The notes under the pieces: generated by a model | What the model was told of the DNA's origin: nothing | The model's database searches: none | What the model saw: the letters and a program-made list of their open reading frames with translations, nothing else | Shown: positions 35,801 through 41,800 of the stretch, piece after piece | How the letters are laid out: each line of letters opens with the position of its first letter | Numbering within the stretch: the first letter of the stretch is position 1 | Made by a program: the position numbers and the translations under genes | NCBI GenBank assembly: GCA_963921795.1 | Contig: OY997657.1 | Location: forward strand, 33,869,891-33,933,890 | Direction of reading: 5' to 3' | DNA length: 64,000 bases | DNA from: Nannobrachium achirus | Taxonomy: Eukaryota; Chordata; Actinopteri; Myctophiformes; Myctophidae

Positions 35801-38800
35801 ATATGGACTGAAGTAATTAAAGGAGGCTCCTGTTTTGCATGTTTGGAATTAATGTAATATATCAGTATTCCAATATTAACCTGTGGGCCGCATTAAATGA
35901 AGGTGGGGGCCGCATGTGGCCCTCCAGTTGCCCATGTATGTTCTAGATCAAAAGATAACTTTACATCATCGACCCTTGAATCCTGACTTCCGCCATTCCA
36001 AACCACAGACGCAACATCAATCCCTAACACAGGCCTCACTTGCTTCTGTCTCCCATCTCTCTTCCTCTGGTCTCAGGAAAGGAAGAGTGAGACGCAGCGT
36101 AGGAGATTTGTATGGAGGTGGGAGCCGCTGAGCTGCTTCCACAGTAGCTTTCTGGAATTCCTCAGTGACATCATGGTGATGTTCTAAGCTGTGGGCAGCA
36201 AAAAATTTCCAAACGTCCAAATGACTCCCTCCCTCCCTGTCCCTGACCCCACCCATGTCTCATCGTAGCCACACCCTCCCTCTGCGATGACTGAAACACA
36301 GCCTTTTTAAGTCTCTTTCTTCACCATCTGTCACTCTCATCCTCCTATGCAGGGCTACTCAACTTTAGACGGCTCAGGGGCCAGCAAAATACAAAAAGTC
36401 CAAGGGCCGTAAGATAGAAATGACGGTCATATTTTGGACGTCTAGACAATGATTTTGTAACACACACCATGAGTAGTCATGACGTTTAGATCCACATTTA
36501 CATCTACTAGAAGCTCGGCCGCCCTTCGGGCGGCCGAGCGTCTAGTCGGCGCCCTGGCCAACTCGGGAACAATGTAAATAGGGGATGAATGCCCCGCCCT
36601 TTAATGCAAACCCCATTATACCTGTTGTCATAGGATCTGTTTTGACCATCTGTTTGCGTGTGTCCATTTATCATTTATGCCCATATATGGTTGATATCTA
36701 TCTGTCTACGTCCATTTTATGTCCATATATGGAGATCTCTGTAGGACCCGTTTTGACCATCTGTTTGCCTGTGTCCATTTATGCCCATATATGGAGTTAT
36801 CTGTCTGTCTGCGTCCATTTTATGCCCATATATGGAGATCTCTGTAGAACCTGTATTGACCATCTGTTTGCCTGTGTCCATTTATGCTCATCCCATAATA
36901 CCTGTTGTCATAGGACCCGTTTTGACCATCTGTTTGCCTGTGTCTATTTATGCTCATATATGCCGCGGTGGGGAGCGTGCATATACTCTATCTGTGTCCA
37001 TCTTTTATGCCCATATGCCCATATATGGAGATCTCTGTATCTGCCCATATGCCCATATATGGAGATCTCTGTCTGTGTCCCTTTTATGCCCATATATCTG
37101 CGTCCATTTTATGCCAATATGCCCATATATGGAGATCTCTGTATCTGCCCATATGCCCATATATGGAGATCTCTGTATCAGTCATATATGGAGATCTCTG
37201 TATCTGCCCATATGCCCATATATGGAGATCTCTGTCTGTGTCCCTTTTATGCCCATATATCTGCATCCATTTTATGCCCATATATGGAGATCTCTGTATC
37301 TGCCCATATGCCCATATATGGAGATCTCTGTATCAGTCTGTGTCCCTTTTATTCTGCCCATATGCCCATATATGGAGATCTCAATCTGTGTCCCTTTTAT
37401 GCCCATATATCTGTCTGTGTCCCTTTTATGCCCATATACGGAGATATCTGTCGGGTCGAGGCAAGGCCCCTGTATTGCCCATATATGGAGATCTCTGTAT
37501 CTGCCCATATATGGAGATCTCAGTCTGTGTCCCTTTTATGCCCATATATCTGTCTGTGTCCCTTTTATGCCCATATACGGAGATATCTGTCGGTTCGAGG
37601 CTAGGCCCCTGTATCTGCCCATATGCCCATATATGGAGATCTCTGTATCAGTCTGTGTCCCTTTTATGCCTATATACGGAGATATCTGTCTATATATGCC
37701 CATATATGGAGATCTCTGTATCTGCCCATATGCCCATATATGGAGTTCTCAGTCTTATGCCCATATACGGAGATATCTGTATATGGAGTTCTCAGTCTTA
37801 TGCCCATATACGGAGATATCTGTCGGGTCGAGGCAAGGCCCGGCACTGCAGTGATGTCACAATGACTCAGCGCTTGCGCCCGGCACTGCAGTGATGTCAC
37901 AATGACTCAGCGCTTGCGCCGATTTTGCGCCGATTTCCGCATAAGGAGATTCCGAACGTTTCGCGGCGGTTAGGGAAAACCGTGGGTCGGGTCGGGTCGA
38001 GGCCCGGCACTGCACTCCGTGCCGCGGCGGGGAGCGCGCGTGCCGAATCTGAAGCCGGTGGGACGAACGGTTCTCGAGATACGCGGATTACAGACAGACA
38101 CACACGCAGACACGCACGCAGAGACTTCTCGCATTTATAGATAGACTAGAAGCTCGGCCGCCCTTCGGGCGGCCGAGCGTCTAGTCGGCGCCCTGGCCAA
38201 CTCGGGAACAATGTAAATAGGGGATGAATGCCCCGCCCTTTAATGCAAACCCCATTATACCTGTTGTCATAGGATCTGTTTTGACCATCTGTTTGCGTGT
38301 GTCCATTTATCATTTATGCCCATATATGGTTGATATCTATCTGTCTACGTCCATTTTATGTCCATATATGGAGATCTCTGTAGGACCCGTTTTGACCATC
38401 TGTTTGCCTGTGTCCATTTATGCCCATATATGGAGTTATCTGTCTGTCTGCGTCCATTTTATGCCCATATATGGAGATCTCTGTAGGACCTGTATTGACC
38501 ATCTGTTTGCCTGTGTCCATTTATGCTCATCCCATAATACCTGTTGTCATAGGACCCGTTTTGACCATCTGTTTGCCTGTGTCTATTTATGCTCATATAT
38601 GCCGCGGTGGGGAGCGTGCATATACTCTATCTGTGTCCATCTTTTATGCCCATATGCCCATATATGGAGATCTCTGTATCTGCCCATATGCCCATATATG
38701 GAGATCTCTGTCTGTGTCCCTTTTATGCCCATATATCTGCGTCCATTTTATGCCAATATGCCCATATATGGAGATCTCTGTATCTGCCCATATGCCCATA

Positions 38801-41800
38801 TATGGAGATCTCTGTATCAGTCATATATGGAGATCTCTGTATCTGCCCATATGCCCATATATGGAGATCTCTGTCTGTGTCCCTTTTATGCCCATATATC
38901 TGCATCCATTTTATGCCCATATGCCCATATATGGAGATCTCTGTATCTGCCCATATGCCCATATATGGAGATCTCTGTATCAGTCTGTGTCCCTTTTATT
39001 CTGCCCATATGCCCATATATGGAGATCTCAATCTGTGTCCCTTTTATGCCCATATATCTGTCTGTGTCCCTTTTATGCCCATATACGGAGATATCTGTCG
39101 GGTCGAGGCAAGGCCCCTGTATTGCCCATATATGGAGATCTCTGTATCTGCCCATATATGGAGATCTCAGTCTGTGTCCCTTTTATGCCCATATATCTGT
39201 CTGTGTCCCTTTTATGCCCATATACGGAGATATCTGTCGGTTCGAGGCTAGGCCCCTGTATCTGCCCATATGCCCATATATGGAGATCTCTGTATCAGTC
39301 TGTGTCCCTTTTATGCCTATATACGGAGATATCTGTCTATATATGCCCATATATGGAGATCTCTGTATCTGCCCATATGCCCATATATGGAGTTCTCAGT
39401 CTTATGCCCATATACGGAGATATCTGTATATGGAGTTCTCAGTCTTATGCCCATATACGGAGATATCTGTCGGGTCGAGGCAAGGCCCGGCACTGCAGTG
39501 ATGTCACAATGACTCAGCGCTTGCGCCCGGCACTGCAGTGATGTCACAATGACTCAGCGCTTGCGCCGATTTTGCGCCGATTTCCGCATAAGGAGATTCC
39601 GAACGTTTCGCGGCGGTTAGGGAAAACCGTGGGTCGGGTCGGGTCGAGGCCCGGCACTGCACTCCGTGCCGCGGCGGGGAGCGCGCGTGCCGAATCTGAA
39701 GCCGGTGGGACGAACGGTTCTCGAGATACGCGGATTACAGACAGACACACACGCAGACACGCACGCAGAGACTTCTCGCATTTATAGATAGACTAGAAGC
39801 TCGGCCGCCCAAAGGGCGGCCGAGCGTCTAGTCGGCGCCCTGGCCAACTCGGGAACAATGTAAATAGGGGATGAATGCCCCGCCCTTTAATGCAAACCCC
39901 ATTATACCTGTTGTCATAGGATCTGTTTTGACCATCTGTTTGCGTGTGTCCATTTATCATTTATGCCCATATATGGTTGATATCTATCTGTCTACGTCCA
40001 TTTTATGTCCATATATGGAGATCTCTGTAGGACCCGTTTTGACCATCTGTTTGCCTGTGTCCATTTATGCCCATATATGGAGTTATCTGTCTGTCTGCGT
40101 CCATTTTATGCCCATATATGGAGATCTCTGTAGGACCTGTATTGACCATCTGTTTGCCTGTGTCCATTTATGCTCATCCCATAATACCTGTTGTCATAGG
40201 ACCCGTTTTGACCATCTGTTTGCCTGTGTCTATTTATGCTCATATATGCCGCGGTGGGGAGCGTGCATATACTCTATCTGTGTCCATCTTTTATGCCCAT
40301 ATGCCCATATATGGAGATCTCTGTATCTGCCCATATGCCCATATATGGAGATCTCTGTCTGTGTCCCTTTTATGCCCATATATCTGCGTCCATTTTATGC
40401 CAATATGCCCATATATGGAGATCTCTGTATCTGCCCATATGCCCATATATGGAGATCTCTGTATCAGTCATATATGGAGATCTCTGTATCTGCCCATATG
40501 CCCATATATGGAGATCTCTGTCTGTGTCCCTTTTATGCCCATATATCTGCATCCATTTTATGCCCATATGCCCATATATGGAGATCTCTGTATCTGCCCA
40601 TATGCCCATATATGGAGATCTCTGTATCAGTCTGTGTCCCTTTTATTCTGCCCATATGCCCATATATGGAGATCTCAATCTGTGTCCCTTTTATGCCCAT
40701 ATATCTGTCTGTGTCCCTTTTATGCCCATATACGGAGATATCTGTCGGGTCGAGGCAAGGCCCCTGTATTGCCCATATATGGAGATCTCTGTATCTGCCC
40801 ATATATGGAGATCTCAGTCTGTGTCCCTTTTATGCCCATATATCTGTCTGTGTCCCTTTTATGCCCATATACGGAGATATCTGTCGGTTCGAGGCTAGGC
40901 CCCTGTATCTGCCCATATGCCCATATATGGAGATCTCTGTATCAGTCTGTGTCCCTTTTATGCCTATATACGGAGATATCTGTCTATATATGCCCATATA
41001 TGGAGATCTCTGTATCTGCCCATATGCCCATATATGGAGTTCTCAGTCTTATGCCCATATACGGAGATATCTGTAGATATCTGTCGGGTCGAGGCAAGGC
41101 CCGGCACTGCAGTGATGTCACAATGACTCAGCGCTTGCGCCCGGCACTGCAGTGATGTCACAATGACTCAGCGCTTGCGCCGATTTTGCGCCGATTTCCA
41201 CATAAGGAGATTCCGAACGTTTCGCGGCGGTTAGGGAAAACCGTGGGTCGGGTCGGGTCGAGGCCCGGCACTGCACTCCGTGCCGCGGCGGGGAGCGCGC
41301 GTGCCGAATCTGAAGCCGGTGGGACGAACGGTTCTCGAGATACGCGGATTACAGACAGACACACACGCAGACACGCACGCAGAGACTTCTCGCATTTATA
41401 GATAGATAAGGCCAAACCTCATTGAACAAAAAGATTGTCATGGAATGATTAATAATGAATTGCAATAATGAATTGCATTTTTATAGCGCTTTTCCAAGTG
41501 CTCAAGCGCTTTACAATGGTTCATTCATTCATACATTAATGATGAAATGATGAAGTTTATTCTTTTGGAACAAACAAAAATGCAAAAATGTCTTGTATAA
41601 AGGGGTCTTGGAGAGAAACTGAAAAATGACATCAGATATTATTTGTCCACGCTGAAAGTAGACAAAATATATTTGTATTGGTATGACCATGACGGGCCAC
41701 ATAGACATGCCCACAGGCCGCAGGTTGAATAGCGCTGTCCTATACTCTCTGACGCCTGAGGCTAAATTCTACGAAGGGCCAGCCAGCATCAACCCTGCAA

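Follow-up and report, generated by a model that had tools for sequence, protein, structure and literature searches.

Helitrons lying head to tail have been cited in favour of a rolling-circle mode of transposition. Here we describe three such units in a 64,000-nucleotide stretch of the genome of the myctophid Nannobrachium achirus (contig OY997657.1, forward-strand positions 33,869,891 to 33,933,890), referred to as the window, and compare them with exact junctions of the same family elsewhere in the genome. Tandem Helitrons as such are already known: PMC5876387 refers to tandem or head-to-tail copies in plants and bats, and PMC5148889 to such copies in bat, Drosophila, rice and maize.

The bat family HeliBat/Helraiser resembles the present family in its TC...CTAG ends, A/T target and 3' hairpin, and its circles carry the same CTAG/TC join as the junctions described below (PMC4778049, PMC5876387). 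The Helraiser hairpin is placed 11 nt from the end, as against only TT between stem and CTAG here and, unlike Helraiser, our units have no visible coding capacity and contain a minisatellite-like core. Mothra, a non-autonomous rice family, is likewise high-copy, with TC/CTAG ends, internal tandem repeats and no RepHel; its sub-types measure 1252-2741 bp and hold two internal tandem-repeat blocks (PMC4683698). It differs in having a plant host, and the accessible parts of PMC4683698 make no mention of head-to-tail arrays. In the maize r1 region, two different Helitrons meet at an exact CTAG/TC junction, for which the authors favour consecutive insertion, the order being unclear (PMC2267711); this is one pair, whereas the present genome has 206 exact junctions, the sample of which includes same-type and mixed ones. 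The Helentron/HINE/DINE-1 (Helitron2) elements share with the present family the rolling-circle class, a 3' stem-loop and internal repeats, but their 12-15 bp subterminal inverted repeats and TT insertion (PMC4067079) are absent from it. Finally, FoHeli and a Metarhizium triplet provide a single case of three tandem copies, with Helitron2-type termini, whose authors are undecided between 5'-end insertion and rolling-circle replication (PMC5148889). No genome-scale account of mixed head-to-tail Helitrons was found in the literature searched, outside of which lay most subscription papers.

Our results indicate that the window contains a real and recent array of three units of a non-autonomous Helitron with canonical ends. 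The explanation that we favour as a whole, with a probability of roughly 0.58, is that such an element formed the window array by one multimer event and that a second route operates elsewhere in the genome. What the analysis adds is a genome-wide set of exact junctions, which are unusually many, and evidence from a sample of them for more than one origin.

The three-unit array and the class of the element

The array spans 4900 bp of the minus strand and is composed of units A, B and C, named in 5' to 3' order on the element strand (Table 1). Each unit starts with TCTATCTATAAATGCG and ends in a hairpin with a 12-bp GC stem, followed by TTCTAG, and both junctions read CTAG/TCTATC with zero spacer. 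Outside two indels the units are 99.7-99.9% identical. In pairwise comparison, 4 mismatches and one 33-bp indel separate A from B; B and C, the closest pair, are separated by 1 mismatch and one 8-bp indel, and A and C by 5 mismatches and two indels. Two single substitutions, a change in the hairpin loop and an 8-bp contraction are each private to A or C. The earlier note on this stretch, made by inspection of the letters, had described a recent array of three near-identical units of about 1.6 kb, head to tail and joined with no spacer, and in all these respects its description stands. Similarity among the window units far exceeds that of the family at large, for which the median pairwise identity is 0.925 (5' region, all pairs of a 72-copy pool), and none of the fetched loci, which represent a small part of the family, gave a megablast match of at least 93% over 400 bp to units A-C.

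Canonical Helitrons are recognized by TC at the 5' terminus, CTRR at the 3' terminus and a hairpin that lies about 10-15 nt from the latter (PMC4067079, PMC13286980), as well as by insertion between A and T (PMC4067079). The units have TC at the 5' and CTAG at the 3' terminus. Their hairpin is larger than the canonical one of 16-20 nt located 10-15 nt from the end, as it has a 12-bp stem plus outer pairs and stands 2 nt from CTAG. The base before the 5' end was A in 39 of 41 sampled genome 5' ends, T in one and G in one, the G case being a junction. Ten of the 41 came from five loci chosen for having two matches near each other (without them, A in 30/31), and the sample is not fully independent, as flanks are common to loci L035 and L036 and to L028 and L034. 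The base after the outer 3' end was T in 10/10 full-hairpin ends. Both flanks were tabulated for 31 spans, ten of which represent one duplicated insertion and for all of which the script demanded a T after CTAG; no duplication of target bases was seen in them by eye, nor was a target-site duplication seen in the flanks of the window array. An empty site was recovered for copy L027, whose joined flanks align across the site to element-free host repeats in L069 and L017; these are paralogous repeats at 76% identity, and L069 has a 9-base gap a few bases off. It follows from the A/T flanks and this empty site that elements of the family are bounded by TC and CTAG and seated between A and T.

Judged from these sequence features, the element is a non-autonomous Helitron with canonical ends (5'-TC...hairpin-CTAG-3', A/T target). 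The earlier note had proposed a rolling-circle transposon family whose genome copies start with TCTATC and end with CTAG; the ends agree with such a class, and the check on genome copies, when run, gave this result. Its label "Helentron-like" has to be withdrawn. Helentrons and HINEs insert into TT and are marked by subterminal inverted repeats of 12-15 bp (PMC4067079). Between the first 120 and last 150 bases of unit C, the one unit compared, there was no inverted match of 8 bp or more (longest exact match, 7 bp), and insertion is between A and T.

Table 1. Elements of the Helitron family and their parts in the window
Feature	Position	Strand	Remarks
Whole three-unit array	36507..41406	minus	element-strand flanks ...GGCCTTA before the 5' end and TAGATGTAAA after the 3' end
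Unit A (first, 5' most)	39793..41406	minus	1614 bp; own changes: one substitution and hairpin loop TTT; lacks the 33-bp stretch present in B and C
Unit B	38146..39792	minus	1647 bp; no private change seen
Unit C (last, 3' most)	36507..38145	minus	1639 bp; own changes: one substitution and the 8-bp contraction
Outer 5' terminus TCTATCTATAAATGCG	41391..41406	minus	host A directly before
3' hairpin and CTAG of unit A	39793..39831	minus	abuts 5' end of unit B; junction 39792/39793
3' hairpin and CTAG of unit B	38146..38184	minus	abuts 5' end of unit C; junction 38145/38146
Outer 3' hairpin and CTAG of unit C	36507..36545	minus	host T next
Minisatellite-like core of unit B	38311..39470	minus	CATATATGGAGATCTC and TTTTATGCCCATATA phrases on the plus strand; cores of A and C similar
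Single family copy	3329..4823	plus	1495 bp; flanks A and T

No coding capacity was seen in units A-C. Three frames opposite to the element (36582-41155, plus strand) are open for 228-426 codons in every unit, because the core has no stops on that strand. We rejected these long frames as genes: that three are open in each unit points to composition, and no Pfam match was obtained for those searched, two from unit B and one from the single copy.

With regard to the host DNA on its two sides (36340-36506 and 41407-41760), the array may sit within a dispersed host repeat, with the sequences CAGGGCTACTCAAC... and ...GGTTGAATAGCGCTGTCC. An inverted match between the two sides was searched for and none was found.

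Junctions across the genome

The 1.66-Gb genome was searched by exact matching, with the reversed sequence as a control. The 16-base 5' end gave 5461 matches (2744 + 2717) and the 20-base zero-spacer junction 206 (101 + 105), each with 0 matches in the control. Thus 206 of 5461 exact 5' ends (3.8%) are directly preceded by CTAG, whereas about 0.2 such joins would be expected by chance from 5461 random insertions into some 1.3e8 AT sites, a number extrapolated from the window. Exact matching undercounts 5' ends and junctions alike; among the 206, some are copies that arose when the surrounding host DNA was duplicated, and L057 at least is perhaps a chance CTAG. At L057, no family hairpin is present upstream of CTAG/TC, nor was an upstream 5' end seen over 3.3 kb, and the join may be either a chance CTAG or a bypass end.

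Thirty of the 206 junction loci, the first in contig order, were taken as a sample; 26 are distinct, L062, L063, L074 and L076 being repeats. Only 2 of the 325 pairs among the 26 are alike on both sides (L068/L071 and L072/L081) and may not be independent. The upstream 5' end could be read in 22 dimers and was not found within 3.3 kb in L055, L057, L060 and L069. Each of the 22 has a 12-bp upstream flank different from all the others, and every flank ends in A. Two 5' types, AGAAGT and ACAAAT, occur, and the partners are of the same type in 18 dimers and of different types in four (L064, L067, L078, L083). Over the length available, the identity of the two units is 0.83 in the mixed dimers L064, L078 and L083, and 0.96-0.99 in L070, L073 and L077; low values (0.79-0.84) also occur in some same-type pairs (L056, L066, L080).

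The partners are sisters in the tree in 3/22 dimers, and a partner is the reciprocal nearest copy in only 3/22 (72-copy pool), a test that near-consensus copies bias against old true pairs. Eight of the 22 (L056, L059, L064, L065, L066, L067, L078, L079) are too divergent for a common birth, given their distances to other copies (margin at least 0.015, pool values, by hand), and others are borderline. Our argument for a mixed origin leans on the four differences of type and not on pool distances.

The two longer arrays sampled are mixed as well. Junctions less than 2 kb apart form six clusters among the first 100 junctions listed, two of which were typed over 200 bases per unit. In the array at 63.63 Mb of C6, a unit of one type is followed by two units of the other type, identical over the 200 bases examined; the array at 42.03 Mb of C8 has two successive units of different type.

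Origin of the window array and of mixed junctions

The ends, the A/T site, the zero-spacer joins and the near identity of the window units are observed directly. We suggest that one recent transposition event brought three joined units into a single AT, the source being either a joined-end circle or rolling-circle synthesis that would have continued past the CTAG/TC junction, with the RepHel protein presumably provided in trans. In support of this, the CTAG/TC join is identical to that of Helraiser circles (PMC4778049, PMC5876387). Such a single-event delivery most likely explains the window array best, a dimer expanded later being the nearest alternative.

That alternative, expansion of a dimer of any origin to three units by unequal crossing-over or gene conversion, agrees with B and C being the closest pair and sharing a 33-bp stretch that is absent from A. 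However, such expansion could not itself create the first exact junction. The substitutions and the loop change, moreover, each belong to A or to C alone, and the 33 bp may have been deleted from A. We consider it improbable.

The mixed-subfamily junctions imply that a second route must also act in this genome. A single circle cannot yield mixed joins, which call for insertion or joining at the very 5' end of a resident copy. By this route an incoming copy would be added precisely at the host-A/TC boundary of a resident copy, which is probably chosen as both an AT target and a nick site of the transposase. Rolling-circle multimerisation, put forward in the earlier note as read-through, is a fair reading of the window array, but it leaves the mixed junctions elsewhere (4/22 dimers and the two longer arrays) unexplained. 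We tentatively consider it possible, though not probable, that the 5' end of a resident copy is a true insertion hotspot for its family, where incoming copies would be joined in trans at the nicked A/TC boundary, and that arrays grow 5'-ward in this manner, mixing subfamilies.

Could the second route account for everything? All zero-spacer junctions, those of the window included, might be serial independent insertions at the host-A/TC boundary of resident 5' ends, and the near identity of the window units would then reflect a young burst of one subtype. The mixed junctions and mixed arrays, the scarcity of reciprocal nearest partners (with the bias noted above) and the fact that the 5' boundary is itself an AT are all in line with this, as is the interpretation of the one mixed maize pair as consecutive insertion (PMC2267711). 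On the other hand, the excess of same-type dimers (18/22, Fisher p 0.007) speaks against serial insertion and, as no near relative of A-C is present in the fetched loci, three strikes by one apparently rare subtype would be needed. We regard it as an unlikely explanation of the whole set. Least probable among the rivals, in our opinion, is homologous recombination, in which an extrachromosomal CTAG/TC circle would recombine with a resident copy across its conserved 5' region to form dimers, mixed or not, without transposase at the target. It would yield exact junctions and preserve the outer A and T, and exact-join circles have been reported for Helraiser and wheat (PMC4778049, PMC13286980); chimeric units that cross over within the shared 5' region would be expected from it.

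Several observations weigh against the combination of a single multimer event in the window and a second route elsewhere. The 33-bp stretch occurs in B and C but neither in A nor in the outgroup copy, which at face value would unite B with C and favour stepwise growth. Unit A retains 10 leftover bases, TAGATATCTG, at this site, and B and C carry a two-copy state (43-bp repeat), which suggests, as judged by eye, that the difference is a deletion in A from the two-copy state and hence private to A. Among the dimers, same-type pairing is above random, since random mixing would give a proportion of 0.455 mixed; the excess means that same-type formation is also real. Unrelated joins would accordingly make up a proportion of about 0.4 (range 0.11 to 0.89), and the share of each formation route is poorly bounded. 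Insertion at the 5' end predicts that the downstream copy should be the older. The pendant branch was longer downstream in 14 dimers, upstream in 7 and tied in 1 (Wilcoxon p 0.43), some branches being implausibly long, probably owing to non-homologous ends of the 350-bp segments compared; this lean towards an older downstream copy is not significant.

The roughly 200 exact junctions, of which some join different subfamilies, would allow read-through, end-targeted insertion and circle recombination to be distinguished from sequence alone. The same set would offer a natural setting in which to test whether the 3' hairpin acts as a terminator.

The 3' hairpin, a possible bypass array and other copies

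The earlier note suggested that the zero-spacer junctions fit read-through past a weak 3' terminator. Shortened hairpins are found at several junction units and at single copies too: the hairpin is full-length at 11 of 26 junctions and at 9 of 25 outer CTAG/T ends (Fisher p 0.78). The 26 junctions leave out the two of the window, both with full hairpins; the 25 outer ends are what remains of 31 after removal of six rows of a duplication on C1, 18 further anchor rows without CTAG/T having been dropped. Two of the 25 lie inside units of the L061 array described below (8/23 full without them). As the outer-end table merges identical tails, the junctions were counted from a separate listing per locus.

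Loss of the hairpin also takes place once an element has inserted. Among twelve copies of a single insertion, located within a repeated host unit, there are five different deletions of the hairpin, although the adjoining 600 bp are a median 99.8% alike in the 11 copies compared. The palindrome is a deletion hotspot, or is hard to sequence. The present hairpin need not equal its state at transposition, and for this reason the comparison has little power. Within the limits of this weak test, neither a weak terminator nor read-through past a broken hairpin as the cause of the junctions finds support.

An array on C1 at 88.55 Mb (L061-L063) is of a different kind. It has four units, with three junctions exactly 1819 bp apart. 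Each CTAG/TC join is preceded by TTTCTAG and no hairpin is present there; a full hairpin with CTAG is found 568 bases upstream of the join, followed by TGATTATAAC, which also occurs after the shortened hairpin of the next unit. It looks as if a unit overran its own 3' end, captured flanking DNA and then multiplied, a history that the bypass model of PMC4778049 would permit.

The repeated host unit mentioned above (L009-L018) is also on C1, at 2.316-2.377 and 2.466-2.506 Mb. It is about 7.7-9.6 kb long and occurs in at least 12 repeats, arranged in two opposite blocks, with the same Helitron insertion in each copy. The matches spaced by 8 kb were considered as an autonomous tandem and rejected, as they represent one insertion within a repeated host unit.

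Four copies at separate places (L028, L034, L031, L077) have similar flanks before the 5' end (...ATGGATACA or ...ATGGATACATA), which partly match family sequence. They may be nested copies and may have moved as composites.

The window also contains a single copy of the family (Table 1), absent from the finding of the earlier note. It is 89-90% identical to units A-C in aligned bases, with 22 gaps, and carries a 356-bp internal duplication of its core, the two parts of which match at 98%.

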